A DNA stretch of 64,000 nucleotides from Taklimakanibacter deserti (lineage in GTDB: Bacteria > Pseudomonadota > Alphaproteobacteria > Rhizobiales > Aestuariivirgaceae): positions 310,001-374,000 of the forward strand of contig QORU01000008.1 in assembly GCA_003574785.1 (NCBI GenBank), written 5' to 3'. Shown in pieces: positions 9,629-29,475 of this stretch (its first letter is position 1; the number at the start of each line of letters is the position of its first letter). The notes below the pieces were generated by a model. That model did not search any database, was not told the DNA's origin, and saw only the letters and a list, made by a program, of their open reading frames with translations. Made by a program: the position numbers and the translations under genes.

Positions 9629-9697
9629 GTTCGTGCTTCGGCTTGCCCTCGAGCTGGTCGAGACCTGCGCCCGCCTTCGGTGTTTCAGCGCCGGCGC

Positions 9698-9798
9698 TAA
9701 AGCGCGATGGCTTTTCTTCGAGTCACCATCGCGCTTTATCTTTTTGTTTGCGCATGATCTTTTCGGAAAACCGGTATCCACTTTTCCGGATCATGCGC
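9698..9798. repeat. Tandem palindromes of Rhizobiales intergenic repeat type
   Basis: Two adjacent hairpins fill most of the gap before the TA operon. The first pairs TAAAGCGCGATGG (9698-9710) with CCATCGCGCTTTA. The second pairs GCGCATGATC (from about 9751) with GATCATGCGC (to 9798), with an inner pair CGGAAAA/TTTTCCG around ACCGGTATCCAC. From general knowledge this GCGCATGATC...GGTATCCAC form recurs between genes in many Rhizobiales genomes. It lies between the 3' end of the cupin gene and the toxin-antitoxin promoter and may insulate the two. Confidence 0.8.
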
Positions 9799-9832
9799 TA
9801 GCTGCGCCCATTCCGCATTGCCGCGCGCTGTA

Positions 9833-9861
9833 TTGACATTGTGGATACAAGTGCTCATATT
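9833..9861 (+). promoter_or_regulatory. Sigma70-like promoter of the TacAT-type operon
   Basis: TTGACA at 9833-9838, a 17-base spacer, and CATATT at 9856-9861. Transcription would start close to the ATG at 9868, so the antitoxin mRNA may be leaderless. This is also why GTG at 9841, inside the promoter, was rejected as the start. The spacer carries the sequence TTGTGGATACAA, with TTGT and ACAA as inverted ends, which could be an operator for the ribbon-helix-helix antitoxin. Confidence 0.6.
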
Positions 9862-9867
9862 CCGGCC

Positions 9868-10209
9868 ATGGCCAAAGCTCGCAACGCCCCTTCGGAATCC
9901 TCCCGTTCCGCCACCGTCACGGTCGTGGACCGCGTTTCTGCGTCCGACACGAAGGGCAGCATCAATCTGCGGATCGAGACCGGGACCCGGCAGCTCATCG
10001 ACGATGCGGCGGCGATCCTCGGCAAGACGCGCACGGAGTTCATGGTCGAGAGTGCGCGGCGGCAAGCGGTCGACGTGCTGCTCGACCAACGCCTGTTCGT
10101 CCTCGATCCAGAGCGCTACGACGCCTTCATGCAGGCGCTCGACAATCCACCAGCACCAGGACCAAAGCTCAAGTCGCTGCTGCGCCGGACACCGGCATGG
10201 CGGAAATAG
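9868..10209 (+). CDS. DUF1778 antitoxin (TacA-like)
   Basis: Antitoxin of a TacAT/AtaRT-type pair, 113 residues. The core KGSINLRIETGTRQLIDDAAAILGKTRTEFMVESARRQA is a ribbon-helix-helix DNA-binding domain of the DUF1778 family, followed by VDVLLDQRLFVLDPERYDAFMQALDNP, the segment that wraps and inhibits the acetyltransferase toxin. The N-terminal 30 residues are polar and probably flexible. It would repress its own promoter together with the toxin and neutralise the toxin directly. The toxin gene starts four bases after its stop. Confidence 0.9.
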   Translation: MAKARNAPSESSRSATVTVVDRVSASDTKGSINLRIETGTRQLIDDAAAILGKTRTEFMVESARRQAVDVLLDQRLFVLDPERYDAFMQALDNPPAPGPKLKSLLRRTPAWRK

Positions 10210-10213
10210 GATT

Positions 10214-10726
10214 GTGCCGGACCGTCCTCTATCGCGACCGTCGGCTCCTGTTCCGCTGACGGCGGAGCACGACCTGTCGGCGTTCGACTGCGGCGAGCCC
10301 GCGCTGAACGACTGGTTGCGCCATCGGGCTTTGAAGAATGAAAGCCGGTTCTCGCGCACCTATGTCATCTGCGAAGGCAATCGGGTCATCGCCTATTTCT
10401 GCATCTCGGCGGGCGCGGTGGAACGCGGCGCCGTGCCGGGCAAGCTGCGACGCAACGCGCCCGATACTATACAAGTTTCGGTGATCGGGCGGCTTGCTGT
10501 CAGCCGTCAACATGCCGGGAAGGGGTTGGGCGCGGACCTGCTTGCGGACGCGCTGCGGCGGATCGCAATCGCCTCGCAGAGCATCGGCATCGGGGCTGTT
10601 CTCGTCCACGCCAAGGACGACGCGGCCAAGCGCTTCTATCTGCGCTGCGCGGAGTTCATCGAATATCCCGAAGACAGCCGGACCCTGTTCCTGCCCATAG
10701 AGACAGTGGTCGCAGCCTTCAGCTAA
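10214..10726 (+). CDS. GNAT acetyltransferase toxin (TacT-like)
   Basis: GNAT-fold toxin that, in characterised relatives, acetylates the amino group of aminoacyl-tRNAs and blocks translation. The 170 residues show the typical start PLTAEHDLSAFDCGEPALNDWLRHRAL, the strand RTYVICEGNRVIAYF, the acetyl-CoA loop VSRQHAGKGLGADLLADALRR (Q/RxxGxG/A type), and the end GIGAVLVHAKDDAAKRFYLRCAEF with the catalytic-type tyrosine, then LFLPI. The start is a GTG at 10214, four bases after the antitoxin stop; AGG at the end of the antitoxin gene can serve as its ribosome-binding site. Confidence 0.9.
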   Translation: MPDRPLSRPSAPVPLTAEHDLSAFDCGEPALNDWLRHRALKNESRFSRTYVICEGNRVIAYFCISAGAVERGAVPGKLRRNAPDTIQVSVIGRLAVSRQHAGKGLGADLLADALRRIAIASQSIGIGAVLVHAKDDAAKRFYLRCAEFIEYPEDSRTLFLPIETVVAAFS

Positions 10727-10740
10727 AACGGCGCGAAGCC

Positions 10741-10790
10741 GTCATCGAGGTCATCGCCTTCGCGGAAGTCATCTCGAAAGACCTGGCATC
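10741..10790 (-). pseudogene. potA 3'-end remnant A
   Basis: On the minus strand this short stretch reads QVFRDDFREGDDLDDGFA, close to the QVFREGDAVDVSFAP segment near the C-terminus of the PotA protein encoded at 12597-13682. The 17 bases CATCGCCTTCGCGGAAG (10752-10768, plus sense) are identical to 12665-12681; a 12-base near-duplication follows. It starts about 15 bases after the acetyltransferase toxin gene and before the HicAB promoter. It is a fragment only and has no start or stop of its own. Confidence 0.6.
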
Positions 10791-10832
10791 ATCTTGGGGC
10801 GAGATATTACGCAATATTTTGCGCATTTTCCA

Positions 10833-10862
10833 TTGACGCGCGGGATGAATTGCGTATATATT
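10833..10862 (+). promoter_or_regulatory. hicAB promoter with palindromic operator candidates
   Basis: TTGACG at 10833-10838, a spacer of 17-18 bases, and ATATAT/TATATT at 10856-10862. The same region contains AT-rich dyads with TGCG...CGCA ends: one over the -10 element (TGCGTATATATTTGCGCA, about 10851-10868) and a related one upstream of the -35 (ACGCAATATTTTGCGC, about 10809-10824). Such paired sites are what a HicB ribbon-helix-helix repressor would bind. The composition is strikingly AT-rich against its surroundings. Confidence 0.6.
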
Positions 10863-10882
10863 TGCGCATAACTGGGCGCGAT

Positions 10883-11071
10883 ATGCAGCATGAAAACAAC
10901 ACCGGAAGGATAAAGGCCCGGCTCGAGCGTGAGGGTTGGACGCGGGAAGGCGGCACGAAGCACGACAAGTATAAGAAGCCCGGTCACTCTTCCATCATGG
11001 TGCCTCGGCACCGCACCGTTACCCCCGGCGTGGCAAAGTCCATTGCCAAAGCTGCGGGCTGGACCAAGTAA
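10883..11071 (+). CDS. hicA: HicA-family mRNA interferase toxin
   Basis: HicA toxin, a small double-stranded-RNA-binding-fold ribonuclease of 62 residues. The layout fits the family: N-terminal helix GRIKARLEREGW, then GGTKHDKYKKPGHSSIMVPRH with the catalytic histidine in the SSIMVPRH strand (the usual GSH/KHxxY region), and the C-terminal helix TPGVAKSIAKAAGW. It is encoded first, with hicB 27 bases downstream. The ATG at 10883 was chosen over an upstream in-frame start at 10850 that would lie inside the promoter. Confidence 0.88.
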   Translation: MQHENNTGRIKARLEREGWTREGGTKHDKYKKPGHSSIMVPRHRTVTPGVAKSIAKAAGWTK

Positions 11072-11098
11072 AGTCCGGCCCGTCTATTGGAGGTCAGA

Positions 11099-11509
11099 AT
11101 GTCTCGATATATCGCCATCATCGACTATGACGAAGCGAGCGGAAAATACGGCGCATACTTCCCCGATGCACCCGGCGCCACCGCAATGGGTGCAACCGAG
11201 GCCGAAGTGATCGCCGATGCCATCGAGGCGCTTGCCGAATGGGTTGCCGATGAGGTTGCGGACGGTCGCCCGGCGCCCGTGCCGCGCACCTATATGCAAC
11301 TGCTCAAGTCCAACGAATTCGACCCTGGCCAAGGCGGCATGATCGCGACCGTTCCCCTGTTGCGCGAAAGCGGCAAACCCGTTCGCGCCAATGTCTCGAT
11401 CGACGCCGGCCTGCTCGAAACCATCGACAAGGAGGCGGAGCGCCTCGGTCTTACCCGCTCGGCCTTTCTGGCGTCGGCGGCAAGGGAGAAGATTAAGGCG
11501 AGCGCCTGA
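11099..11509 (+). CDS. hicB: HicB-family antitoxin
   Basis: Antitoxin partner of HicA, 136 residues in two domains. Residues 1-70 form the partial RNase H-like fold (YIAIIDYDEASGKYGAYFPDAPGATAMGATEAEV) that masks the toxin. Residues 95-136 (VPLLRESGKPVRANVSIDAGLLETIDKEAERLGLTRSAFLASAAREKI) form a ribbon-helix-helix DNA-binding domain for autoregulation. The start ATG at 11099 follows TTGGAGG with good spacing. Downstream lies a fragment of a potA 3' end. Confidence 0.9.
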   Translation: MSRYIAIIDYDEASGKYGAYFPDAPGATAMGATEAEVIADAIEALAEWVADEVADGRPAPVPRTYMQLLKSNEFDPGQGGMIATVPLLRESGKPVRANVSIDAGLLETIDKEAERLGLTRSAFLASAAREKIKASA

Positions 11510-13903: not shown

Positions 13904-15046
13904 TCACGCACCTTTCGAGATGCGGTCCCACTGCTTCTGCCATTCGGCGTCGTGCTCGGCCCAATAGTTCGGGTCGGCGAAGGTCAGCGCCTTCATGGTG
14001 CCGGTCGGATCGAAGGCCGGAAGCTTGGCGATCTTCTCCGTGAGCTTGACCTTGTTGGGGTCGAGCGAGGGCGGATAGCTCTGCCCCTCGGCCACCGCGA
14101 TCGCCGTCGCCGGCTCCAGCATGAAGTTGCACAGCTCCTCGCATTCGGCCATCGGCGAACCTTTGAGGATCAGCATGTCCTCCATCCAGGCATAGCTGCC
14201 AGGGGGGTCGAGATAGCCGATCGGATGGCCTTGCTCCTGAAGGGCGGCGATGCGGCCCGACCAGGCGTCGGTGACGACGATCTCGCCCTTCGACAGGAGG
14301 TCCATGAGCTCCGCACCCGAGCTCCAGTATTTCTTCGCCATGTCGCGGCTTTCGCGCACCTTGGCCCACACCGCCTCGATGTCCTTGATGTCGTTGGGGC
14401 TCTGGCCGGTCTGCAGCGCCGCATACCAGACACGCGTGTTCTTGTCGCCGAAACCACCGATCTTGCCGGTGTATTTCTTGTCGATGAGGAGGTTGGCGCC
14501 CTTTTCCTTGGCTTCCTCGGGCGAGATCACCTTGGTGTTGTAGGCGATGCCGGTGGTGCCGTAGTCGTAAGGCACCGCCGAAAGCTTCGGCGTCAGCTTG
14601 CGGAACGGCTCGATCATCGCCGCCATGACATTGACCATGTTCGGGATGTTGGCCTCGTTGATCTCCGACACCCAGCCGCCATCGACATATTTCTTGTAAT
14701 ATTCGGTGCCGGAGGAGTGGATGATCTGGAAGTCGCCCGGATTGGAGGTCTTCACCTTGGTGATGACCTCGTTTTCGTCGCCGAAGGTGCCTTGCACCAC
14801 CTTGAGGCCGGTCTTCTTGGTGTAGGGCTGGAAGGCGAATTTATCGATCGCCTCCTGCACCGTGCCGCCCCAGCCGTCGAAGCGCACTTCCGTCACCGCC
14901 GCAAGGGCCGGTCCGCTCCAGCGCGTCATCAGGCCGGCCGAGGCCGCCGCCGCCGCGGTCAACCCTAGGAAGGTGCGGCGGTCCATGCCGCCATTCTGGT
15001 AGCGCTCTTTGAGCCGCTCCAGTCTCTTGGTCTGCGTGAGTTTCAT
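13904..15046 (-). CDS. Extracellular polyamine-type substrate-binding protein
   Basis: Periplasmic binding protein of the PotD/PotF family, 380 residues. The N-terminus has MDRRTFLGLTAAAAASAG, a twin-arginine signal (RRTFLGL), preceded by about 20 residues. The mature part has EVRFDGWGGTVQEAIDKF, a variant of the family's opening strand, then KTGLKVVQGTFGDENEVITKV, a middle region with YGTTGIAYNTKVI, and the hinge and C-terminal lobe TDAWSGRIAALQEQGHPIGYLDPPGSYAWMEDMLI. The ligand is not predictable: the usual polyamine-binding aspartates and aromatics are only partly recognisable. It lies 22 bases after potC on the minus strand. Confidence 0.88.
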   Translation of the reverse strand: MKLTQTKRLERLKERYQNGGMDRRTFLGLTAAAAASAGLMTRWSGPALAAVTEVRFDGWGGTVQEAIDKFAFQPYTKKTGLKVVQGTFGDENEVITKVKTSNPGDFQIIHSSGTEYYKKYVDGGWVSEINEANIPNMVNVMAAMIEPFRKLTPKLSAVPYDYGTTGIAYNTKVISPEEAKEKGANLLIDKKYTGKIGGFGDKNTRVWYAALQTGQSPNDIKDIEAVWAKVRESRDMAKKYWSSGAELMDLLSKGEIVVTDAWSGRIAALQEQGHPIGYLDPPGSYAWMEDMLILKGSPMAECEELCNFMLEPATAIAVAEGQSYPPSLDPNKVKLTEKIAKLPAFDPTGTMKALTFADPNYWAEHDAEWQKQWDRISKGA

Positions 15047-15067
15047 CTTTCTGTTTCTCCCTGGTTA

Positions 15068-15889
15068 TTATTGACGATTACCAAATAGAATGCGCCCTAA
15101 GAGACCGCCTGCCAAGGGGAGGCCGATGGTGATGAGGATCATCAAGGTTCCGAGCGCATTGATCTCCGGGCTGATCGAGATTTTCAGCATGGCCAGGATC
15201 TGCGTCGGCATGGTCTCGACCCCGGGCGGGCGCCAGAACAGGCTCGCGGTGATGTTGTCGAAGGAGATGGTGAAGACGAGAAGCACGCTCGCCACGATGG
15301 CGGGCATCAGCAGCGGCAAGGTCACTTCCCGGAAGGTGTTGAACCGGTTGGCGCCGAGCGAGAGCGAGGCCTCCTCATAGACGCGCTTGACGCCGATGAG
15401 CCGCGCCTGGACGACCAGCACGACGAAGGGCAGCGCCAGCATGATGTGGCCGAGCACCAGGAGCAGATAGGTCCTGGGCTGGTTCGCCCATTTCATCAAG
15501 AGCAGGAGGCCGACGCCGAGAATGGTCTCCGGCACCAAGGCCGGCATGATCACCAGCGTGTTCATCCAGTGCTTGCCGCGGAACTCGTAGCGGGTAAGTG
15601 CCAACGCCGCCATGACGCCGATGACGGTGCAGACGGCGGCGGTCAGGAGCGCGATCCAGATCGAGGTCTTGAACGCGCGCAGCACGGCCTCGTTCTGGAA
15701 CAATTTGCCGTACCATTGCAGCGAGAGGCCCGTCATCGGGAAGCCGCCGAACATCGAGGCGTTGAAGGACAGGATGACGGTGACCAGGATCGGCGCGAAC
15801 ATGAAGATATAGACGAGGACGGTGACGAGCTTCACCGCCCGCCAGCCCCAGATGCCGCTCGCATCCTCGACTTGCCGGGTCCCACTCAT
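15068..15889 (-). CDS. potC: ABC transporter permease (PotC-like)
   Basis: Inner-membrane permease of the polyamine-type importer, 273 residues with six predicted helices. The EAA loop that contacts the ATPase reads EEASLSLGANRFNTFREVTLPLLMPAI, matching the EAAxxxGA...F..V.lPl consensus of this class. The start ATG at 15889 overlaps the potB stop by four bases (ATGA), so translation is coupled. A 73-residue in-frame extension reading back through potB was discarded. Confidence 0.92.
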   Translation of the reverse strand: MSGTRQVEDASGIWGWRAVKLVTVLVYIFMFAPILVTVILSFNASMFGGFPMTGLSLQWYGKLFQNEAVLRAFKTSIWIALLTAAVCTVIGVMAALALTRYEFRGKHWMNTLVIMPALVPETILGVGLLLLMKWANQPRTYLLLVLGHIMLALPFVVLVVQARLIGVKRVYEEASLSLGANRFNTFREVTLPLLMPAIVASVLLVFTISFDNITASLFWRPPGVETMPTQILAMLKISISPEINALGTLMILITIGLPLAGGLLGRILFGNRQ

Positions 15890-16749
15890 CGGCTCAAGCC
15901 CTTGAAGATGGTGGAGAGGCCCATATAGCGGCTGTAGATCGCCGACACGATGCCGAGCAGCACGAAGAGCACGATCGAGAGCGTCGAGCCCATCGGCCAG
16001 TTGAGCTGTCCCATGATCGTGTCGAAGATCAGATTGCCGAACAGGGCATCGCGGGTGCCGCCGAGGATCTGCGGCGTGACATAGCTGCCGGCCGCCAGCA
16101 CGAAGCACAAGAGCAGCCCGGCGCAGAGGCCCGGCAGCGACAGCGGCAGCGTCACTTCGCGGAAGGCCTCAGCGCTGGTGCAGCCCAAGGTGCGCGCCGC
16201 CGAGATCAGGTCGCGGTCGATGCCCTCGAGGCTCACATAGACATTGAGGATCATATAGGGCAGCAGGAAATGGATCATGCCCATGATCACCGCGCCCTCG
16301 GTATAGAGCATCTGGATCGGGCTCTCGATGATCCCCAATGACGTCAGCGTGACATTGATGGCGCCTTGCTCGCCCAGTATGTGGATCCAGGAGAAGGTGC
16401 GGATGGTGAAGGAGATCCAGAACGGCACGATGAGGAGGAGCAGCAACAGCCATTTGTGCCGGAAGGACGTCATCCAGATGAAATAGGCCGGGATGTAGCC
16501 CATGATGGCGCAGGCGATGGCGGTGATGGCGGCGACCCGCGCGGTCTTCCACAGGAACAGATGGTAATAGCTGTCGGTGAAGAATTCCTGCCAGTTGGCA
16601 AGCGTGAAATTCGCCTTCTCGACGCCGGCGGTGACGAATTCGTAAAATGTGTAGATGCCCATGATGACGATCGGCAGCAGCAGCAGCAAGATGAGCAGGA
16701 CGAGCGCCGGCGCCAAGAGATACCAGGCGAAACGCGTCTGCTGGATCAT
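15886..16749 (-). CDS. potB: ABC transporter permease (PotB-like)
   Basis: First gene of the pot operon, a 287-residue permease with six membrane helices starting at WYLLAPALVLLILLLLLPIV. The EAA loop is SAARTLGCTSAEAFREVTLPLSLPGL. It would pair with PotC to form the channel. The 5' region of about 300 bases up to the ispB stop contains a dispersed palindrome and a second inverted repeat but no convincing promoter by eye. Confidence 0.92.
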   Translation of the reverse strand: MIQQTRFAWYLLAPALVLLILLLLLPIVIMGIYTFYEFVTAGVEKANFTLANWQEFFTDSYYHLFLWKTARVAAITAIACAIMGYIPAYFIWMTSFRHKWLLLLLLIVPFWISFTIRTFSWIHILGEQGAINVTLTSLGIIESPIQMLYTEGAVIMGMIHFLLPYMILNVYVSLEGIDRDLISAARTLGCTSAEAFREVTLPLSLPGLCAGLLLCFVLAAGSYVTPQILGGTRDALFGNLIFDTIMGQLNWPMGSTLSIVLFVLLGIVSAIYSRYMGLSTIFKGLSR

Positions 16750-19358: not shown

Positions 19359-20813
19359 ATGGCACAGGCCTGGCAGCAGTATCTTGTCCTGGAGCCTGTG
19401 CCGTCGGCGGAACATGAGCCGACATCGCGCGCGGCCAAGCATCCGGGCCTGACCTGGCATGATCATCTCGTCATGCTGCTCCATGTCGCCGCCGAGATCG
19501 AGCACGGGCTCATGGTCCAGTATCTCTATGCCGCCTATTCGCTGGGCGGTCCTGATGCCTCGGCGACGCCTGAGCGCCAGGATCTCATCAAGCACTGGCA
19601 GGCGAGCCTGATCAAAGTCGCCAAGGAGGAGATGGGCCATCTCCTCACCGTGCAGAACATCCTCTGTCTCATCGGCGCGCCGGTCCATTTCGGGCGCGAA
19701 AACTATCCCTGGACCGTTCCCTATTATCCCTATCCCTTCCGGCTCGAGAAGCTCACGCGATCATCGCTCGCCTGCTACGTCCATGCCGAGATGCCGCCGC
19801 ATATCACCGCCATGCTGAAGAAATATCCGGAGCTTTCCCGGCGCTTCAAGGAGTTCACCGAGAAGGACAAGGCCTGGATCGACCGGCTCGTCAAGGAGCG
19901 GGCCAGGGGCCAGATCCATACCGTTGCCGCCATCTATGACGAGATCGTCGGCATCATCGGCAACGAGGAGCTGATCCCCGATTCCGCCTTCGATGAGGAA
20001 AGCTATGTCTGCCAGGCTTCCTGGGACGATTGGGGACGAGGCTATGGGCCCGAATTGCGCCGCCTCGATGCGAGCGGATCGGCGGTGGGAGACCCCGAGC
20101 GCCAGCGCGAGGCCAACCTCCTCATCATGCGCGCCGCCACGCGCACCGAGGCGCTCACGGCGCTGAAGGCGATCGGCAGCCAGGGCGAGGCCATACACCT
20201 CGAGCCCAAACGCACCGACGAGCTCTCGCATTTCGAGCGCTTCCTCAAGATCTTCCAGCAATATCCGGACGACTGGGTGCCGGCGCGCGACATTCCGGAC
20301 AATCCGACGACCCGGCAATTCAACAAGAATGACGCGGTCTATATCGACAACGATCATGCCCGCGATTGGGGCACGCTGTTCAATTACCGCTACCGGCTGC
20401 TCCTCACCTGTCTCGCTCATTCCTTCCGGCTGCAGCGGCTCTCGCAAGCGGGCGAGCCCAATCTGCGCGGCATGGTCATGCATCGGGCTTTCGGCGAGAT
20501 GTACAACATCAAGACGATCGCCGGGATCATCGTCGGCCTCGACCTGCACAAGGAAGGAGCGCCGCAGGGAAGCCCGCGCTTCGCCGGGCCGCCTTTCGAG
20601 ATGCCCTTCATGCTGACGCTGCCGGACGCCGAGCCCGATGCCTGGCGGCTGCATCAGGAGTTCCTCCAGGGCTCGATCGATGTGGCGGAGCTGCTGTTGG
20701 AGCAGGCGAAGGGCGCCCAACGCGATTATCTTCTGGCGCTCAAGGATCTCGACCGCCGGGCCATCGCCTCCATCGACGCCTTGCTCGACGGCCAGGGGAG
20801 CAGACGCAAGTGA
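19359..20813 (+). CDS. Ferritin-like protein (VioB/iminophenylpyruvate dimer synthase-type domain)
   Basis: First gene of the quinone-enzyme-like operon, 484 residues. Residues 30-170 form a ferritin-like four-helix bundle: HVAAEIEHGLMVQYLYAAYS and KVAKEEMGHLLTVQNIL provide E and ExxH ligands for a two-metal site, followed by PVHFGRENYPW. The combination resembles the ferritin-like domain of VioB and related oxidative enzymes, so an oxygen- or peroxide-using role is possible. The C-terminal half has another helical bundle (FNYRYRLLLTCLAHSFRL, HRAFGEMYNIKTI). ATG 19359 is preceded by AAGGGG. Its stop overlaps the LodA-like gene (GTGA). The reaction is unknown; a maturation or substrate-generating role for the next gene is inference. 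Confidence 0.75.
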   Translation: MAQAWQQYLVLEPVPSAEHEPTSRAAKHPGLTWHDHLVMLLHVAAEIEHGLMVQYLYAAYSLGGPDASATPERQDLIKHWQASLIKVAKEEMGHLLTVQNILCLIGAPVHFGRENYPWTVPYYPYPFRLEKLTRSSLACYVHAEMPPHITAMLKKYPELSRRFKEFTEKDKAWIDRLVKERARGQIHTVAAIYDEIVGIIGNEELIPDSAFDEESYVCQASWDDWGRGYGPELRRLDASGSAVGDPERQREANLLIMRAATRTEALTALKAIGSQGEAIHLEPKRTDELSHFERFLKIFQQYPDDWVPARDIPDNPTTRQFNKNDAVYIDNDHARDWGTLFNYRYRLLLTCLAHSFRLQRLSQAGEPNLRGMVMHRAFGEMYNIKTIAGIIVGLDLHKEGAPQGSPRFAGPPFEMPFMLTLPDAEPDAWRLHQEFLQGSIDVAELLLEQAKGAQRDYLLALKDLDRRAIASIDALLDGQGSRRK

Positions 20814-23035
20814 CCCGTGAGACGACCAAGATAAAAGAGCTTCGCATCCTGCCGCCTTTCGCCATCGGCAGGCTCGGTTCGGCGCCCGATCCGCTCGACA
20901 ATTACACCATCGCGACCGATGCCGAGGGGCCGCTGGGCTATCGCAGCATCAGGCCGGTTGAAACATTGATCGTCGATGCGGCGACGGGCGAGATCACGGG
21001 CAGCCATGTGCCGGAAGAGATCGCGTTCAAACAGGACGGCCGGATACGTCCGGTGGCGCCGTTCCTCGAAGTCTTCGCGCTGACGGAGAATGACGAGCTT
21101 GTGCCGCTGACTGGCGACATGTTGGCGGGCGGCGAGCTCGCCTGGCGCGTCACGCTGGCCAACCGCAAGGTGGTCCGGCGCACGAGGGACGAAGCTGATC
21201 TCGTTTCCGCCGATACCGGCTGGTTTTCCGATCACGCGCCGCGACCGCTCGAAGGCCACTGCCGGAACTTCATATCGCAGGAAGCCCATGTCGATTTCGG
21301 CAGCGCGCGCTTCATCAAGCCCAGCGATGGATTTCCGCAGATCCGCCTGCGCTTCACGCCGGCGAAAGGCTTGATCTACGGGCCGCAAGCGCCCGACGCG
21401 AAGGATCCGGTCATCCCGCCCGAGCGCGCGATCTATGATCGCGGCAAGGGCAAATGGTATCACTTCGAAACGCATGGCGAGGATGAGACCATTCCGCCCT
21501 CGCTCTTCGCCATCGAGCCGCCGGCGCCGTCGTGGCTCAACGACAATGTCGCCGTCAGCCGCGGCTATCTCGATGATGCCTGTGACGGCTTCGTCGAGGT
21601 AAGGCTCACCTCTGCCGACGGCCAGGCGCTCACCGCGACGGCGCGGATCTGCGCGTCGCCGCCCGCGGTGGTGCCGGATTCGCTCTTCGTGCGCAGCCTC
21701 GCCGATGATCTGGAGCAGGTCATCCACGGTCCGGCCGTCGGCGATGACGAGCCGCCCGAAGTCACCCGGGCGCGCGCCGAGGATATCGTGCGCCGCGCTT
21801 TCGAGACCGTGCGCTTCCTCAATGTCGCGGTGATGAACGGCAACGACTATAAGGGCCGCTCGGCGCTCTCGCTCGATTCGATGCCCGAGGAGGAGGCCGC
21901 CGACACCGAGCGCGCCATCCGCCCGGTGATCGCGCCCGGCGGCGCCGATACGCTGGCGATCCTCGCTTTGCACCAGCAGGTCTACGCCGCCTTGCGCGGT
22001 GGCGCCGCACCCTGGTTCCTGCGCCTGCTGCGGAACCCTGATGAGGTTTCCGACTTCACCGACCGCGGCCGTCGCAAGATGCCGGCTCTGATGTGCGGCG
22101 CCGACAACAGCTATCTCGCTCTCACTCATCGCCAGATCGACACCATCCGCAAAGTGGCGGAAGGCGCTCTCGGCCGTCCTGCCGCTGCGCCCAAGGCGCC
22201 CGCGCTCACGCCGCGCAATCTCACCGCCCAGCTTCACTACGAGGCGGCGGGCAATCCGGTGAGTTCGCGGCCGGTGACGTCGGTCGCCAATTGCTGCCCG
22301 GGACTCGAAGTGGATTTCCGCGCCATCTGGCGGCGCATGCTCGAGGGCCTGGAGCTGCGCGAATATGACAATCTGATCGTCGCTGCCGATCCGGCCTTCG
22401 CGCGGCTGAAAGGCCATCGCCTGCTGCGCATCAACCTTCCGGGCCGCCAGAAACCGATCGAGCCCATGAATTATATCAAGGGGCCGGCGGCATCCGATCC
22501 CGAAGGCTATGTCATTCTGACCACGGACGAGAATCCTTATGGCCTGGCGCCGCTCGAATGGTCGAATGCGCTGGCGCGTCTGTTGAACGGCTTCCAGGGC
22601 CAGACCGTCCAATGCGACATCTCGCTTGCCGAGGAAGACGCGCAAGTGCCGTGCATCGAGGATCCGAAGAATTATGAGACGCTGAGCTTCAAGGTCCGGC
22701 ATTTCTTCGCGCCCGATACGGCGGTCATCTCCGAGGCCCTGGCGCAAGCGGGCGAGCTCACCCAGGGCCTGTGCTCGCCCTGGCAGAATGATTACCGGGA
22801 ATGCTCGTGCTATTACTGGGCTTCCGCCCGGCCCGATTATGTGAATGTCGAGCCCGGCCCCAAGGGTCTCAGCATCGGCGACAACTGGCTGCAGAAGAAG
22901 CGCACCGGGCAATATGTGCCCGACGACTACACCGATTCCCGTCTCGTCTTCTATGACGACCTGTTCACCGAGTGGGAGAAATGGCTGCGCTTCCAGGTCA
23001 AGGGCCGCGATGCGCAGGGCGAGGAGCGATCGTGA
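20810..23035 (+). CDS. LodA-like protein, candidate tryptophylquinone oxidase
   Basis: A 741-residue protein resembling the LodA/GoxA family of amino-acid oxidases that carry cysteine tryptophylquinone (CTQ) made from their own Cys and Trp. The opening ELRILPPFAIGRLGSAPDPLDNY and PVAPFLEVFALTENDELVPLT fit the family start (LodA is about 726 residues). Cysteines 495 and 496 in VANCCPGLEVDF sit where CTQ proteins have a cysteine before PGIE/PGLE; candidate tryptophans are W661 (SPWQNDY) and W670 (YYWASARPDYV), and the region LCSPWQNDYRECSCYY is rich in cysteine. Start GTG 20810 overlaps the ferritin-like stop and the gene's end overlaps the radical SAM start. LodA needs a flavoprotein (LodB) for CTQ; a LodB-like gene lies two genes on. 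Which residues form a cofactor, and the substrate, are not known. Confidence 0.7.
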   Translation: MTRETTKIKELRILPPFAIGRLGSAPDPLDNYTIATDAEGPLGYRSIRPVETLIVDAATGEITGSHVPEEIAFKQDGRIRPVAPFLEVFALTENDELVPLTGDMLAGGELAWRVTLANRKVVRRTRDEADLVSADTGWFSDHAPRPLEGHCRNFISQEAHVDFGSARFIKPSDGFPQIRLRFTPAKGLIYGPQAPDAKDPVIPPERAIYDRGKGKWYHFETHGEDETIPPSLFAIEPPAPSWLNDNVAVSRGYLDDACDGFVEVRLTSADGQALTATARICASPPAVVPDSLFVRSLADDLEQVIHGPAVGDDEPPEVTRARAEDIVRRAFETVRFLNVAVMNGNDYKGRSALSLDSMPEEEAADTERAIRPVIAPGGADTLAILALHQQVYAALRGGAAPWFLRLLRNPDEVSDFTDRGRRKMPALMCGADNSYLALTHRQIDTIRKVAEGALGRPAAAPKAPALTPRNLTAQLHYEAAGNPVSSRPVTSVANCCPGLEVDFRAIWRRMLEGLELREYDNLIVAADPAFARLKGHRLLRINLPGRQKPIEPMNYIKGPAASDPEGYVILTTDENPYGLAPLEWSNALARLLNGFQGQTVQCDISLAEEDAQVPCIEDPKNYETLSFKVRHFFAPDTAVISEALAQAGELTQGLCSPWQNDYRECSCYYWASARPDYVNVEPGPKGLSIGDNWLQKKRTGQYVPDDYTDSRLVFYDDLFTEWEKWLRFQVKGRDAQGEERS

Positions 23036-24369
23036 GCGGTCTCGCCCGTCACTATATGAAGGCCTCCGGCCCGCGCTTGCCGGCGGCGCATCTTCTGGCC
23101 ACCGAAGCGGGCCGGCATCTTTTCGTCGCCGACGGCAGCCGGCTGTTCGATATCGATGCCGATCTCTTCGCCGCGTTCGACACGGCCTTGACGGGATTGG
23201 ATGCCGGCAAGGTCGCAAGCCTGCTGGCGCGAGCGGGCCTCGACGGTGCGCCCTTGATCGACGATGCGCCGCTCGAGCCGCCGCCGATCCATGCGCTCTC
23301 GCTCGCCGTGGCGCAGAAATGCAATCTCGGCTGCACCTATTGCTATGCCGAACAGGGTGGCTTTGGCGGCGCGCCGAAGAATATGCCCGAGGCGACGGCA
23401 CTTCAGGCGGTCGAGCAGCTCATCGGCAATGCGGGTCCGGGCGCCAGGCTCAATCTCTCCTTTCTGGGCGGCGAGCCCCTGGTCAACCGGCCGGTGCTGC
23501 AGAAGGCGACCCGTCATGCCGCCGATCTCGCGCGCCAAAGGGGCACGCCGATCACCTTTTCGATCACCACCAACGGCACGCTCGTCACCGACGCCGATGT
23601 GGACTTTTTCGAGGAGCATGGCTTCGCGGTGACCGTCAGCCTCGACGGCATCGGAGCAGCGCATGACGACCAGCGCCCCTTCCGCAATGGCCAGGGGAGC
23701 TTCGAGCGGATCATGCGCCGGATCGCGCCGCTGCTCGCTCACCAGCGCCGCATGCAGGTCTCGGCGCGCGTCACCGTCACGCCGCGCAATCTCGATCTGC
23801 GCGCCACGCTCGATGGCTTCATCGAAGCCGGCTTCCACAGCGTCGGTTTCTCGCCCATGCTCGCTTCGCCCTCGCGGCAAGGCGAGATGGGGCGTGACGA
23901 TCTGGCGCTGATGCTCGAGCAGATGATCGCGTGCGGGCAGGAATTCGAGCGCCGCACGCGGGCCGGCGAGCGCTATCCCTTCGCCAACATGCTGAATGCG
24001 CTCCGCGAGATCGGGCGGGGCACGCATCGGCCTTACCCATGCGGCGCCGGCGCCGGCTATCTCGGCGTCTCCGCTTCCGGCGATCTTGCCGCCTGCCATC
24101 GTTTTGTCGATGACGCCGAAGGCGCCATGGGCTCGCTCGCCAACGGCATCGATGGCGCGCGCCAGAGGGCGTGGCTGGCCGAGAGGCATGTGCATCGCCA
24201 GGAGCCCTGCAATGGCTGCTGGGCGCGCTATCTCTGTGGCGGCGGCTGCCATCATGAAGTGACGAAGCGCGGCCGTCCGGCCTGCGACTACATCAGAGGC
24301 TGGCTGCATTATTGCCTGGAGGCCTATTTGCGCCTCGGCCAGGCTGCCCTGCAGCCGATGGCGGGGTGA
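23032..24369 (+). CDS. Radical SAM/SPASM protein (QhpD-like)
   Basis: Peptide- or protein-modifying radical SAM enzyme, 445 residues. The 4Fe-4S cluster motif is QKCNLGCTYCYAEQG (CxxxCxxC), followed by LNLSFLGGEPLVN and VTVSLDGIGAAHDD. The C-terminal SPASM region has PCGAGAGYLGVSASGD...ACHRF and then CNGCWARYLCGGGCHHE, a cysteine pattern close to QhpD, which puts thioether cross-links into the gamma subunit of quinohemoprotein amine dehydrogenase before its CTQ forms. The N-terminal 90 residues look like a leader- or substrate-recognition domain. Start GTG 23032 overlaps the LodA-like stop (GTGA) with GAGGAG upstream. The likeliest substrate is the LodA-like protein, by position; this is inference. 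Confidence 0.82.
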   Translation: MSGLARHYMKASGPRLPAAHLLATEAGRHLFVADGSRLFDIDADLFAAFDTALTGLDAGKVASLLARAGLDGAPLIDDAPLEPPPIHALSLAVAQKCNLGCTYCYAEQGGFGGAPKNMPEATALQAVEQLIGNAGPGARLNLSFLGGEPLVNRPVLQKATRHAADLARQRGTPITFSITTNGTLVTDADVDFFEEHGFAVTVSLDGIGAAHDDQRPFRNGQGSFERIMRRIAPLLAHQRRMQVSARVTVTPRNLDLRATLDGFIEAGFHSVGFSPMLASPSRQGEMGRDDLALMLEQMIACGQEFERRTRAGERYPFANMLNALREIGRGTHRPYPCGAGAGYLGVSASGDLAACHRFVDDAEGAMGSLANGIDGARQRAWLAERHVHRQEPCNGCWARYLCGGGCHHEVTKRGRPACDYIRGWLHYCLEAYLRLGQAALQPMAG

Positions 24370-24372
24370 GCC

Positions 24373-25761
24373 ATGGCCCTGGTCTGCGTCATGGGCGGCG
24401 GTCCGGCGGGCAGCATCTTCGCCATCCGCATGGCTGAGCTCGGCCATGAGGTGGAGCTCATCGAGAGCGCGCGCTTTCCCCGGCCGCATCTGGGCGAGTC
24501 GCTGAGCCCGGGTGTTGTGCCGCTGCTCGAGAGCCTCGGCGCCGAGGGCGCCCTTGCCGGCGCACGCCCGGTGCGCCAGGTCGAGGTCGCCTGGGATGGT
24601 CCGCCGCTGATCCGCGCGGATGTGCGCGCCGAGGGGCGGCTGGTCGATCGCGGCACTTTCGACCGCCGGCTCATCGATCATGCGCGAGGCCTTGGCGTGC
24701 GCATCCGCCAGCCGGCCCGGATCATCGAGCGGCGGCAGGATGAGCGGGGCTTTCGCCTGACCATCGAGACGGAAGCGGGAAGAGAGGAACGCGCGGCCGA
24801 TTTCCTCGCCGATGCGCGTGGCCGCGCTGCGGCGGGCGCCTGGCGCAGGGCGACGACCGGACCCCTGACCTTGGCGCTTCATGCCTATTGGAAGGGAACA
24901 GGACCTCCGACGCATCCGGTGATCCAGGCGGGTGATGAGGCCTGGTATTGGGCCGTGCCGCTTCCCGACGGCACCTCGAACCTGCAGGTCTTCGTCGATG
25001 CCAGGCAATTCGGCGCTGCGCCGAAAGCCGCGCTGGCGGCGCGCTATCTCGATCTTCTCGATCATTCAGGGTTCCGGCGCGGCTTGCGCCAGAGCGAGGT
25101 GATGGCGAGTGATGCGACGCCCTATGTCGCCCGCAGCGCCGCGACATCTTCGAGCATCGGGCTCGGTGAAGCGGCCTTGGCGCTCGATCCTTTGTCGTCG
25201 TCGGGCGTACAGAAAGCGATCCAGACATCGCTCGCCGGCGCCATCGTCGCCAATACGCTGATCAGAAGGCCGGCCTGGGCCGCGGCCGCCATGGATTTCT
25301 ACACGGCAAGCCTGGAGGAAGCCTCCACGCGCCATCGCAGCTGGGCCGCCGGCTATTATGCCGAGGCGGCGCGGACGCGACCGGCCTCGTTCTGGCAGGA
25401 TCGCGCGGCAGCCGCGCCTGACGAAATTCCCCGCGCAGCGGTGGTTTCCACCGATGCCGCAGGTGCGGCCGCGCAACCGGTCGAGCTCTCGCGCGATCTC
25501 GTCATCGAGGATCTGCCCTGCATCGAGGGTGAGTTCGTCACGCTCGCCAAGGCGTTGCGCCATCCGGGGCTTGCGGGTCCCGTCGCTTTTCTCGGTGGTC
25601 AGCCCTTGGCGCCGCTGGTGAACGATCTCTCGTCCGGCGCGACGCTGGTCGAGATCGCGCAAGGCTGGTCGCGGCGCATGCCGTTCAAATCCGCTTTGTC
25701 GATCGCCATCTGGCTGCGCAACAGCGGCATTCTGGTCGACCGCGGCGGGGTGCTGCCATGA
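24373..25761 (+). CDS. FAD-dependent oxidoreductase, LodB/QhpG/halogenase-like
   Basis: Flavoprotein of the tryptophan-halogenase-like group, 462 residues. The FAD site is VMGGGPAGSIFAIRMAELGHEVELIE, followed by FPRPHLGESLSPGVVPLLESLG, a motif shared by halogenases, LodB and QhpG. LodB and QhpG hydroxylate the tryptophan that becomes CTQ, which fits the gene's position behind a LodA-like and a radical SAM gene. The WxWxIP-type halogenase motif is not visible; AWYWAVPLPDG occupies a comparable place, arguing for monooxygenation rather than halogenation. The second half contains PLSSSGVQKAIQTSLAG, typical of this flavoprotein fold, and a C-terminal extension of about 130 residues. It begins three bases after the radical SAM stop and overlaps the cyclase start (ATGA). 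Confidence 0.78.
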   Translation: MALVCVMGGGPAGSIFAIRMAELGHEVELIESARFPRPHLGESLSPGVVPLLESLGAEGALAGARPVRQVEVAWDGPPLIRADVRAEGRLVDRGTFDRRLIDHARGLGVRIRQPARIIERRQDERGFRLTIETEAGREERAADFLADARGRAAAGAWRRATTGPLTLALHAYWKGTGPPTHPVIQAGDEAWYWAVPLPDGTSNLQVFVDARQFGAAPKAALAARYLDLLDHSGFRRGLRQSEVMASDATPYVARSAATSSSIGLGEAALALDPLSSSGVQKAIQTSLAGAIVANTLIRRPAWAAAAMDFYTASLEEASTRHRSWAAGYYAEAARTRPASFWQDRAAAAPDEIPRAAVVSTDAAGAAAQPVELSRDLVIEDLPCIEGEFVTLAKALRHPGLAGPVAFLGGQPLAPLVNDLSSGATLVEIAQGWSRRMPFKSALSIAIWLRNSGILVDRGGVLP

Positions 25762-28700
25762 GCGCGCTCACCGACTGGCTCGACGCGCATGGCTTTTCCG
25801 AGCATGCGCGGCTCTTCATCGACAACGATGTCGATTTCACCACGCTGCTGCTCTTGACCGACAATGACCTGAAGGAGCTCGGTCTCTCATTCGGCGCCCG
25901 CAAGCGCCTGCTCGGCGCGCTGGCCGAGGCCAAGGCGCTGAAGCCGGAGCCGGCGGTCAGGGCCGAGGAGCGGCGTCAGCTCACCGTGATGTTCTGCGAC
26001 ATGGTGGGTTTTACCGGGCTCGCCCAGCGCGTCGATCCCGAGGTGCTGAAAGACATCGTGCGCGCCTATGAGGATGCCTGCGCCGCCTGCATCGCCCGTT
26101 ACGAGGGTTATCTGTTCCAGCGCCTGGGTGACGGCATTATCGCCTTCTTCGGCTTCCCGCTCGCCCATGAGCGCGAGGCCGAGCGCGCCATCCGCGCCGG
26201 CTTGGACATCCTCGACGCGATGGCCTGTTTCAAGACGCCCGATACGGCGAAGCTCGAGGTCCGCATCGGCATCGCCACCGGCATCGTCGTCGTCTCCGCC
26301 GACGGGCGCACCGCCGTGAGCGAGACCATGAACCTCGCGGCGCGCCTGCAGAGCGTGGCCGAGCCGGGCACCATCGCGGTCAGCTCCAAGGTGCGCAAGC
26401 TCGCTGCGGACGTCTTCGGCTATGCCGATATCGGCGCGCAAAGTCTCAAGGGCATCACGCTTCCCGTCCAGGTCTATCGCGTGGCAGGTGTGGCGACCGC
26501 CGAAGACCGCCAGGCCAAGGACAAGCCGCTCATCGGACGCGGGCCCGAGATGGAGGCGCTGCTCGACAAATGGCGGCGCGTCCATGATGCGGGCGAGGGC
26601 TTCACCATCAATCTCTGCGGCGAGCCGGGCATCGGCAAGAGCCGCATCGCCGATGCGCTATGCGCCAGCCTCGAGCATGAGCATGCCCAGATCTGGCGCT
26701 TCCAATGCTCGCCCTTCCATCTCAACAGCGCTTTCTACCCGATCAGGACGCATCTCGATGAGGTGCTGCAGATCGGCGACGACAGCCCGGCCGATGCGAG
26801 GCTCGACAAGCTGGAGGCGCTGATCGTCGGGCGTTACGGCCTGCCTCGTTCCGACGTGCGCTTCATCGCGAGCATGATGTCCATCCCCTGCGAGGAGCGC
26901 TATGGCGCGCTCGATATATCGCCGCGGCTCGCCAAGCAGGAAACCGTCCGCGTGATGGAGGACATGGTGGCCGCCGCCGCCCGCTTGCGTCCCACGCTGC
27001 TCCTGTTCGAGGACATGCACTGGGCCGATCCGACGACGCTCGAGACATTGGAGCGGCTGATCGGCAAGCTTGCCGGCATTCCTTTGCTGATCGTCGCCAC
27101 CTATCGGCCGGAATTCGAGCCGCACTGGTCGCGTCATGTCAATGTCGCGGTGCTCAATCTCGCCAAGCTCACGGCCGAGCAATCGAGCGAGATGGTCTCG
27201 AGGCTCGCCGAGGGGAAGTCGCTGCCGGCCGAGATCGTCGAGCAGATCATCGCCAAGACCGATGGTGTCCCGCTCTTCGTCGAGGAACTGACGCGCACCA
27301 TCCTCGAATCGGGCGGGCTCGTCGAAGCGGGCGGGCGCTATGTCTATACCGGCCCGACTTTGGGGTTCGCCATCCCCGAGACACTGCGCGATTCGCTGGC
27401 CGCGCGTCTCGACCGCCTCGCCAAGGCGAAGCCCGTCGCCCAGATCGGCTCTGTCGTCGGGCGCACCTTCAGCCATGAGCTCATCTCGGCGCTCGCTCAG
27501 ATGGACGAGGCCGCCTTGGCCGAGGGCCTGGCGGAACTGACCGCCTCGGGTCTCGCCATGAGCTCGGGCGTGTCGCCTGGCCCCGTGTCCTACACATTCA
27601 AGCATGCCCTGGTCCAGGACGTGGCCTATGATTCGCTGCTGCGCAGCCAGCGCAAGCCCTTGCATGCGCGCATCGCCCAAGTGCTGGAGGAGCGCCATCC
27701 CGAGACGCGCGAGCGCGAGCCGGAACTGCTCGCGCATCATTATTCGGCGGCCGATGACCAGGCGGCGGCAGCCCCCTTGTGGCTCAAGGCGGGCGAGGTG
27801 GCGATGCGGCGTTTCGCGGTGCCCGAGGCCGACAGTCATCTGCGCAAGGGCATGGAGCTGCTCGCGACGTCTTCGCCGAGCGCCGAGCGCGATCTTCTGG
27901 AATTGCGCTTTCGCGCCGCATTGGGGCCGGCGCTCGTGGCCGGGCGCGGCTGGGGCCATCCGGAGCTGAGCGCGGTCATGGAACCCGCCTGGTCGCTGGC
28001 CCGCAGGCTCACGCATCGCCAAGGCTATCTGCCCATCCTGAATGCGCTCTGGGTGCATTGCCTGTGCACCGACCGGCTCGATGTATCGATGCATTGGGCG
28101 GAGAAATTGCTGGAGGTCGGGGCTGAGACCCAAGACGACAATCTGGTCATCGTCGGTCACCGTGCGGTCTCGGGCTCGGCCTTCTGGCAGGGTCGCTTCG
28201 ACGTGGCCAAAGCCCATGGCGACAAGCTTCATGCACTATACGACGCCGGGAAGCATTGGCACATTGCGCAGCTGACCAACACCGATCCGCTGACCGGCGA
28301 GAGCATCTACCGGGCACAATATCTTTGGATCATCGGCTATCCCGACCAGGCGGTGGCGGCGAGCGATGCAAGGGACGACCACGCGCGGCGCCGCAATCAT
28401 CCCTTCGACCTCGCCTTCTCGCTGACGCTGGGCGCCCAGGCGTTCGATTTCCTCTCGCAGCCTGAAGAATTGCTGGCGCGCGCGGCGGAGGCCGACAATG
28501 TGGGCCGTCGCTTTGGTGTCTCGCTGTTCTTCGAGGTCATGGCCGAGATCAGCCAGGGCATTGCCTGGCTTCGGGCTGGGCGTCATGCCGACAGCGCCAC
28601 GCGGCTCGACCGCGCCATCACCCGCCTCGCCGCGACCGGCCATCGCATCTGGATCGCCTATTTGCGGGCGCTCCAGGCCGAAGCGCTGGCGCTGGGCGGC

Positions 28701-29081
28701 AATGTCGAGGCTGCCGAGGCTCTCCTCGACGAGAGCATCGCCAGGATCGAGGGCGGCGAGGAACGTTGTCACTATGCCGAGGTGCTGCGCCTCAAGGGTT
28801 GGCTTCTGGCGCGGCAGGGCAGGCGCGCTGAGGCCGAGAAGCGGCTCGGCGCGGCGCTTGCCGTCGCGCGGGCCCAAGGTGCGAAGTCGTGGGAGTTGCG
28901 CGCCACGACCACGCTTGCCCGGCTTCTCGCCGAAGAGGGCGAAGAGGCCCGTGCCTTCGACATGCTCCAGGCCATCTATGGCTGGTTCACCGAAGGCTTC
29001 AACACCAGGGATTTGACGGATGCCAGGGCTCTCCTCGATGAGCTTGGGCTTCAGTTGCGGAGAGGAGTGAAACATGGGTGA
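25758..29081 (+). CDS. SAM-domain adenylate/guanylate cyclase with ATPase and TPR modules
   Basis: Multidomain regulator of 1,107 residues. Residues 1-60 are a sterile alpha motif (LTDWLDAHGFSEHARLFIDNDVDF...LGARKRLL). Residues 70-250 are a class III nucleotide cyclase with metal aspartates D81 (MFCDMVGFTG) and D125 (QRLGDGIIAFFG) and the transition-state segment TMNLAARLQSVAEPG, so it looks active. An ATPase domain follows with Walker A NLCGEPGIGKSRI near residue 290 and LLLFEDMHWADPTTLETLERL as Walker B, of the STAND-like AAA type. The rest is TPR-like helical repeats. It overlaps the flavoprotein gene by four bases (ATGA) and the SnoaL-like gene by eight. Cyclases of this build are common in Rhizobiales, but being last-but-one in a cofactor-enzyme operon is unusual and suggests it senses or signals the pathway state. 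Confidence 0.88.
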   Translation: MSALTDWLDAHGFSEHARLFIDNDVDFTTLLLLTDNDLKELGLSFGARKRLLGALAEAKALKPEPAVRAEERRQLTVMFCDMVGFTGLAQRVDPEVLKDIVRAYEDACAACIARYEGYLFQRLGDGIIAFFGFPLAHEREAERAIRAGLDILDAMACFKTPDTAKLEVRIGIATGIVVVSADGRTAVSETMNLAARLQSVAEPGTIAVSSKVRKLAADVFGYADIGAQSLKGITLPVQVYRVAGVATAEDRQAKDKPLIGRGPEMEALLDKWRRVHDAGEGFTINLCGEPGIGKSRIADALCASLEHEHAQIWRFQCSPFHLNSAFYPIRTHLDEVLQIGDDSPADARLDKLEALIVGRYGLPRSDVRFIASMMSIPCEERYGALDISPRLAKQETVRVMEDMVAAAARLRPTLLLFEDMHWADPTTLETLERLIGKLAGIPLLIVATYRPEFEPHWSRHVNVAVLNLAKLTAEQSSEMVSRLAEGKSLPAEIVEQIIAKTDGVPLFVEELTRTILESGGLVEAGGRYVYTGPTLGFAIPETLRDSLAARLDRLAKAKPVAQIGSVVGRTFSHELISALAQMDEAALAEGLAELTASGLAMSSGVSPGPVSYTFKHALVQDVAYDSLLRSQRKPLHARIAQVLEERHPETREREPELLAHHYSAADDQAAAAPLWLKAGEVAMRRFAVPEADSHLRKGMELLATSSPSAERDLLELRFRAALGPALVAGRGWGHPELSAVMEPAWSLARRLTHRQGYLPILNALWVHCLCTDRLDVSMHWAEKLLEVGAETQDDNLVIVGHRAVSGSAFWQGRFDVAKAHGDKLHALYDAGKHWHIAQLTNTDPLTGESIYRAQYLWIIGYPDQAVAASDARDDHARRRNHPFDLAFSLTLGAQAFDFLSQPEELLARAAEADNVGRRFGVSLFFEVMAEISQGIAWLRAGRHADSATRLDRAITRLAATGHRIWIAYLRALQAEALALGGNVEAAEALLDESIARIEGGEERCHYAEVLRLKGWLLARQGRRAEAEKRLGAALAVARAQGAKSWELRATTTLARLLAEEGEEARAFDMLQAIYGWFTEGFNTRDLTDARALLDELGLQLRRGVKHG

Positions 29082-29475
29082 AAAACACAAAGCCGACGAA
29101 GCGGCGATCCGCCGGCTGGACGAGGAATGGGGCAAGGCGGCGACGAACAGCGATATCGACGCGGTCGTAAGTTTCTACGCCCATGACGGCTCGCTGGTCT
29201 GGCCAGATGAGCCCGCGGTGCACGGCACCGCGAATATCCGCGCCAACTGGAAGAAGATGATGGACACCATCACGGGCCTTAAACTGCGCTTCACGCCCGA
29301 GCGTATCGTGATTTCCGATGATGCCTCGCTCGCCTCCGATTTCGGCAAGGTCGAGTTCGGTCAGGAGGTGAACGGCAAGACGCAAATGCAGATCGCGAAA
29401 TATGTCGTGGTCTGGCGCAAGGAGAAGGGCAGCTGGAAAGTTCTCTATGACAGCTGGAACATGAATTCCAAGTAG
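29074..29475 (+). CDS. SnoaL/DUF4440-like protein, end of quinone-enzyme-like operon
   Basis: NTF2-fold protein of 133 residues with the classic DUF4440 pattern: AIRRLDEEWGKAATNSDIDAVVSFYAHDGSLVWPDEPAVHG, then IRANWKKMMD, and the final strands VVVWRKEKGSWKVLYDSWNMN. Members are ligand-binding or cyclase/isomerase-type proteins. It overlaps the cyclase gene by eight bases and is therefore part of the same operon. Its place suggests a small-molecule handling role for the operon product, but nothing specific can be claimed. Confidence 0.8.
   Translation: MGEKHKADEAAIRRLDEEWGKAATNSDIDAVVSFYAHDGSLVWPDEPAVHGTANIRANWKKMMDTITGLKLRFTPERIVISDDASLASDFGKVEFGQEVNGKTQMQIAKYVVVWRKEKGSWKVLYDSWNMNSK

Follow-up and report, generated by a model that had tools for sequence, protein, structure and literature searches.

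Introduction

The biogenesis of cysteine tryptophylquinone (CTQ) has been described as solved by divergent strategies in LodA and GoxA and in quinohemoprotein amine dehydrogenase (QHNDH) (PMC7876137). In LodA, CTQ is formed from C516 and W581 (PMC4417212), and a flavoprotein is the only maturation enzyme known from the accounts of ordinary LodA (PMC4417212, PMC7876137). In QHNDH, QhpC carries CTQ (C37-W43) together with the thioethers C7-E16, C27-D33 and C41-D49; the radical SAM enzyme QhpD, like PapB, forms such Cys-Asp/Glu thioethers (PMC8172795). Once QhpC is crosslinked by thioethers, its Trp is dihydroxylated by the flavoprotein QhpG (PMC7876137). Here we analyse a 64,000-nucleotide stretch of the Taklimakanibacter deserti genome (contig QORU01000008.1, positions 310,001 to 374,000; hereafter the window), which contains an operon where a LodA-like gene is accompanied by genes for a ferritin-like protein, a QhpD-like radical SAM enzyme and a flavoprotein.

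We consider it likely that the product of this operon is a CTQ-dependent oxidase with the LodA fold, and that it matures by a route of the QHNDH type. Among the matches listed in the open-licence PMC literature, no title or abstract beginning reports a radical SAM enzyme joined to a LodA-like protein, and the word "radical" occurs zero times in the 2015 LodA survey.

Results and Discussion

The LodA-like protein and its predicted CTQ segment

Six plus-strand open reading frames (ORFs) lie tightly packed between positions 19359 and 29475 (Table 1). Both the ORFs and their junctions were re-read in the window, and they are coupled as the first-pass annotation of this DNA had claimed: GTGA overlaps at 20810 and 23032, an ATGA overlap at 25758, a 3-base gap ahead of 24373 and an 8-base overlap at 29074.

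Judged from its sequence, the product of the second gene is a divergent branch of LodA. Its matches to LodA_N (21.7 bits, cut-off 26.3) and LodA_C (16.7 bits, cut-off 25) are both under the curated Pfam cut-offs, and a precomputed PF17990 annotation exists for some of its close relatives. A phmmer search of PDB with the protein found no relative. Profile searches of PDB gave only E 0.06 with a first, narrow profile and E 3.8e-5 with a wider one. The predicted model matched the LodA fold with strong Foldseek E-values, so that the LodA-like identity proposed earlier holds for the fold as well. QhpC was not among the fold matches listed for the model, which is uninformative either way. No signal peptide was seen on inspection by eye.

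The CTQ residues were located by LodA numbering. Alignment of an ordinary LodA (locus L124) to 3weu places D512-x3-C516 in a PWQ motif and W581 in YWWP. The window protein has the same motifs (D-x3-C and W..P) at D661, C665 and W670, so that C665 and W670 correspond to LodA C516 and W581. CTQ is thus predicted at C665-W670, and thioethers are predicted at C655-D661 and C667-D676. The motifs quoted in the first-pass annotation are present, and of its two candidate Trp residues W670 was right; the other is actually W658, not W661, and is ruled out as the CTQ Trp by LodA numbering.

Homologous loci were drawn from 190 pattern matches in genome contigs, which yielded 140 confirmed loci, and the best 80 were kept. 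Their record titles name Pseudomonadota, Bacteroidota, Acidobacteriota, Verrucomicrobiota, Planctomycetota, Gemmatimonadota, Myxococcota and Actinomycetota. Eight loci that are fragments or frameshifted were left out of the residue alignment, which has 73 rows (the window and 72 loci). C655, D661, E664, C665, C667, W670 and D676 are invariant in all 73. Across the 80 loci, with 7,624 ORFs in all, a motif expression found 78 matches, every one LodA-like; 15,600 shuffled segments gave none.

The layout of these residues is that of QhpC, whose numbering was verified on 1jmx_G. C27-D33, C37, C41, W43 and D49 of QhpC and C655-D661, C665, C667, W670 and D676 of the window protein follow in identical order with similar spacing. 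The distances, QhpC first, are 6 and 6 for the first Cys-Asp pair, 4 and 4 from Asp to the CTQ Cys, 4 and 2 from there to the second thioether Cys, 2 and 3 from this Cys to Trp, and 6 and 6 from Trp to Asp. Conversely, 123 of 126 QhpC (PF08992) rows carry the window motif pattern with Asp or Glu. Profile alignment of QhpC gave E 4.3e-5 with ordinary LodA (score 39.6; 100 column shuffles, maximum 23.4) and E 4.5e-7 with the joint CTQ region of the LodA superfamily (114 rows; score 44.6; 100 shuffles, maximum 20.5). As the aligned segment is only about 30 residues long, the CTQ segments may share descent or may have converged.

Comparison with ordinary LodA

PF17990 was used to collect ordinary LodA genes. 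It gave 11 loci in 11 of 398 Pseudomonadota genomes and 4 loci in 2 of 246 Actinomycetota genomes; among 193 Myxococcota genomes 38 had a match, and loci were taken from 30 of these 38. One Bacteroidota gene was added by a custom profile. Because L155 and L156 cover one and the same gene, the resulting 46 loci represent 45 genes. A first motif expression fitted 41 of the loci, and the other five were read with looser ones. All 46 have Ala, Gly or Ser where the window protein has C655, and in no case does a Cys stand within three residues ahead of the CTQ Trp. A flavoprotein match was found in the flanks of 38 of the 46. No radical SAM gene of the LodA-linked type was found in the flanks, which span about 1.5 kb per side for most and about 4-6 kb for 12 regions (L140-L151); the sole radical SAM match, at L140, is of another kind (75 bits).

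Since C655 and C667 have no counterpart in the 46 ordinary LodA loci, these two residues accompany the radical SAM gene in the sets compared, with one exception among the homologous loci (L020, see below). The window system therefore resembles LodA/LodB and GoxA/GoxB in its oxidase fold, its D-x3-C and CTQ Trp positions and its adjoining flavoprotein gene, but adds a radical SAM gene, C655 and C667, and a flavoprotein of the QhpG type. Its CTQ loop is short, with 4 residues between C665 and W670, and some ordinary LodA are alike in this (L126, L155). With the QHNDH operon (QhpC, QhpD, QhpG) it shares a radical SAM enzyme, a flavin monooxygenase and the Cys/Asp/Trp layout. In contrast to QHNDH, the quinone carrier would be a 741-residue LodA-fold protein and not a subunit of about 9 kDa.

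The two proposed maturation enzymes

The third gene encodes a SPASM radical SAM enzyme that is QhpD-like, as had been suggested: its best model is QhpD (TIGR03906, 304.4 bits). The CX3CX2C and SPASM cysteines are present (C117, C121, C124, C357, C375, C413, C416, C422, C426 and C438, numbered from base 22972) and conserved at 0.97-1.00 of 73 rows. The second-best radical SAM model is PapB (253.5 bits, cut-off 340), the maturase of the ranthipeptide freyrasin. PapB is alike in that it makes Cys-Asp S-Cbeta thioethers (PMC8172795), but its substrate is a short peptide, whereas a large enzyme is proposed here. A tree of 52 rows (39 window-type, 6 QhpD, 7 other) gathered the LodA-linked enzymes with support 91/92, apart from the six true QhpD (100/98). 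Because the branches are long, the mutual place of the two groups is unsure. The genomes of Nitrincola (L021) and Azospirillum (L073) hold both kinds of radical SAM enzyme, each adjoining its own substrate gene.

The flavoprotein had been called LodB-like, and is instead QhpG-like. It scored 303.9 bits with the QhpG model NF049967 (cut-off 240) over profile positions 1-412 of 423, against 107 bits with GoxB and 78 bits with LodB. The curated LodB/GoxB cut-off of 400, which these scores do not reach, is strict, as two ordinary LodB-type proteins tested also fall short of it. These two scored 169 and 205 with the QhpG model, ending at position 339-343 of 423, and both lack the C-terminal part that the window flavoprotein has. 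The latter matched 7ctq over nearly its full length (E 1.1e-29). An unrooted tree of 37 window-type, 3 QhpG and 12 LodB rows (part of those available) split the 12 LodB from the rest (100/99). Since it is unrooted and QhpG stands in an open fork, this tree is no proof that QhpG and the window-type enzymes share descent.

Conservation of the gene set

Only loci whose flanks were long enough were scored for presence, and a match could lie anywhere within the locus. The ferritin-like gene shares the locus with the LodA-like gene in 73 of 74 testable cases, L024 being the exception. The radical SAM gene likewise reaches 73 of 74 (absent from L020), and the flavoprotein gene 67 of 69 (absent from L020 and L070), more than chance would give. 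In contrast, only 13 of 64 testable loci have the cyclase gene, and 5 of 62 the SnoaL-like gene. By gene positions, the partner genes adjoin the LodA-like gene in nearly all loci; exceptions are L003 and L021, where the flavoprotein gene is upstream, and L070, where the radical SAM gene is about 7 kb upstream. From these counts and positions, the first four genes form a unit to which the fifth and sixth are local additions. The co-occurrence that the first-pass annotation expected is therefore borne out, except that the cyclase it included is an optional extra.

Two loci are unusual. In L070 (590-9001), a flavin amine oxidase gene (PF01593) and two genes without a Pfam match lie between the upstream radical SAM gene and the ferritin-like gene. 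In L020 (9001-11361), a full LodA-like motif is found in a 20-kb locus with no radical SAM or flavoprotein gene, and the metagenome-assembled genome has no TIGR03906 match.

The system is sparse: an abundance scan covered 397 further Pseudomonadota and 246 further Bacteroidota genomes, and none of them had a full-length member. Where a source names the members of the LodA-like family, they are mostly labelled "hypothetical protein"; of 7,996 proteins scored for this family, 1,799 matched with E <= 0.001, some of them perhaps ordinary LodA.

Proposed maturation and its alternatives

There is good support for the core combination of a LodA-type protein, a QhpD-like radical SAM enzyme and a flavoprotein. 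By the proposed route, the radical SAM enzyme would first act as QhpD does on QhpC, joining C655 to D661 and C667 to D676 by sulfur-to-methylene thioethers. Next, W670 would be hydroxylated by the QhpG-type flavoprotein, twice as with QhpG itself; C665 would add to W670, and oxidation would yield CTQ. The mature enzyme probably uses O2 to oxidise an amine or amino acid, with an imine and H2O2 as products.

Several observations weigh against this proposal. The radical SAM enzyme stays below the QhpD equivalog cut-off of 453, which true QhpD exceed (742-744 bits), and its BLAST matches to them share 30-34% identity. The tree does not show the LodA-linked enzymes as the sister group of QhpD; three unrelated long-branch SPASM rows are nearer (84/52). 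A search by eye found no counterpart of the third QhpC crosslink, C7-E16. Direct hhalign comparison of QhpC with the window family landed on the right segment, but its score of 20.1 is not significant (100 column shuffles, mean 15.6, maximum 22.8; reversed, 19.7). The Foldseek TM-scores to LodA and GoxA are at most 0.39 despite the strong E-values, and model confidence is low in the CTQ loop (pLDDT, the predicted local distance difference test, 73, 57 and 75 in blocks). One of the two scan patterns, WQNDYRE, holds W658, D661 and E664, so that the invariance of these three residues in the 80 loci was partly selected. Finally, L020 keeps the whole motif with neither a radical SAM gene nearby nor a match elsewhere in its genome.

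The radical SAM enzyme might make a different bond, such as C665-W670 or another Cys-Trp link, with C655 and C667 serving otherwise, for example as a disulfide or metal site. Its score under the QhpD cut-off would fit this, and since CTQ of ordinary LodA needs only a flavoprotein as far as known (PMC4417212, PMC7876137), QhpD chemistry is not obligatory. We regard this as rather unlikely, because C655 and C667 each have an Asp near the QhpC spacing, all four residues are invariant, and the two top radical SAM families both make Cys-Asp/Glu thioethers.

Another question is the role of the ferritin-like protein. It scored 98.4 bits with PF12902, and its conserved Glu and His residues are consistent with a di-metal site. 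The VioB model TIGR04492 (about 1000 positions) matched at 50.8 bits, only across its ferritin-like part and short of the equivalog cut-off of 1250. A fold match was found to CC_0557 (3hl1), whose title states no function; VioB, RebD and 3hl1 are ferritin-like proteins. VioB and RebD stand beside their amino-acid oxidases. By analogy with them, the ferritin-like partner probably handles one product of the oxidase; a part in maturation is less likely.

Such a part might be that of a maturase, a di-metal oxygenase placing the first oxygen on Trp, a step thought autocatalytic in LodA and GoxA. This would be compatible with the QHNDH-type route, and the conservation of the gene, the Glu/His set and the ferritin fold speak for it. 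It is nonetheless unlikely, as QhpG alone inserts both oxygens (PMC7876137) and PF12902 genes also stand ahead of two lodA-lodB pairs that lack a radical SAM gene. These lie directly upstream in L145 (7360-8865, minus strand) and L146 (4711-6054, plus strand), two of 12 ordinary lodA-lodB regions searched, and a ferritin-like gene is also described near fungal lodA genes (PMC4417212). The gene does precede the LodA-like gene, as noted at first, but is no mark of this variant.

It is very unlikely that the LodA-like protein is crosslinked for stability and holds no quinone, as a structural or carrier protein or a product resembling ribosomally synthesised and post-translationally modified peptides. 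The parts of the literature examined report no activity for any protein of this branch, but a QhpG-type flavoprotein accompanies nearly all testable loci and both CTQ residues are invariant.

The first-pass choice of C495 or C496, with W658 or W670, as the source of CTQ is hardly credible: both cysteines are invariant in a close set of 29 rows, but over all 73 rows C495 occurs in 63, C496 in 14 and neither in nine, eight of whose loci show a radical SAM gene (the ninth, L031, stops at a contig end and its genome has one on another contig), and LodA numbering sets the CTQ Cys four residues past the conserved Asp, at C665.

The early idea that two cofactor routes are combined thus stands for the core pairing on a LodA-fold protein and for genes that travel together, and falls for the CTQ Cys picks, one of the two Trp picks, the LodB-like label, the ferritin-like gene as a mark of this variant and the cyclase as a fixed member. 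With QHNDH-type enzymes apparently acting on a LodA-type protein, the statement that the strategies diverged becomes directly testable. If the proposed route is true, a large protein joins the substrates of thioether-forming radical SAM enzymes, and two cofactor routes described as separate become connected. Ordinary LodA, devoid of C655 and C667, would then offer a natural experiment on the role of the thioethers. A family of mostly "hypothetical" proteins would also be marked as probable amine or amino-acid oxidases.

Split loci and a possible link between the routes

In 13 of the 80 loci (L031, L042, L068-L070, L072-L078 and L080) the LodA-like protein is split at one common place, near 9001-11260 of the locus in most. 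The N part has about 460 residues, and the C part, of about 285, bears the whole CTQ segment. This form was found in Myxococcota, Actinomycetota, Acidobacteriota and some Alphaproteobacteria. The two ORFs overlap by exactly 4 bases in six loci (L068, L069, L070, L072, L073 and L080) and are separated by 3 bases in L042 and 99 bases in L031. The other five are GC-rich, and the called start of their second ORF is too far upstream for the junction to be judged.

The split form echoes the separate QhpC subunit of QHNDH. A match of the QhpC leader peptide to the start of the split CTQ subunit was sought and rejected, as it scored 12.8 with the C-terminal part whereas 200 shuffles averaged 10.0 and reached 18.0. 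With the full-length profile, the best local match of the leader fell at the split boundary (residues 464-479, window 22199-22246), again not significantly.

We tentatively suggest, at somewhat less than even chances, that the LodA and QHNDH routes are not independent. The CTQ segment, a QhpG-type monooxygenase and a QhpD-type enzyme would form an old module that moved between scaffolds. The present LodA-like proteins, above all those of the split loci with their separate CTQ gene, would be intermediates between a one-piece oxidase and QhpC, in which CTQ is framed by two Cys-Asp thioethers within a LodA fold.

Accessory and neighbouring genes

Table 1. Features of the operon, in window coordinates.
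Feature	Position	Strand	Basis or remark
Ferritin-like protein, 484 residues	19359..20813	+	PF12902
LodA-like protein, 741 residues, predicted CTQ oxidase	20810..23035	+	GTG start overlaps stop of preceding gene
C495-C496 (NCCPGLE), earlier CTQ-cysteine candidates, unsupported	22292..22297	+	both missing in 9/73 rows
CTQ segment C655..D676	22772..22837	+	invariant in 73/73 rows; QhpC crosslink order; LodA C516/W581 map here
SPASM radical SAM enzyme, QhpD/PapB-like	23032..24369	+	GTGA start; longer reading from 22972
QhpG-type flavin monooxygenase, 462 residues	24373..25761	+	NF049967 303.9 bits; 7ctq match
SAM domain, class III cyclase and AAA protein, 1107 residues, optional accessory	25758..29081	+	profile matches; 13/64 testable loci
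SnoaL-like/DUF4440 protein, 133 residues, optional accessory	29074..29475	+	profile match; 5/62 testable loci

The cyclase/AAA protein scored 495 bits with TIGR03903, the model of TOMM kinase/cyclase fusions, below the cut-off of 706; the match covers positions 278-1266 of 1267. Genes for an ABC transporter (a solute-binding protein and two permeases) lie 2.6 kb upstream of the operon on the opposite strand (13904-16749, minus); at a guess, they may encode an amine or polyamine importer.
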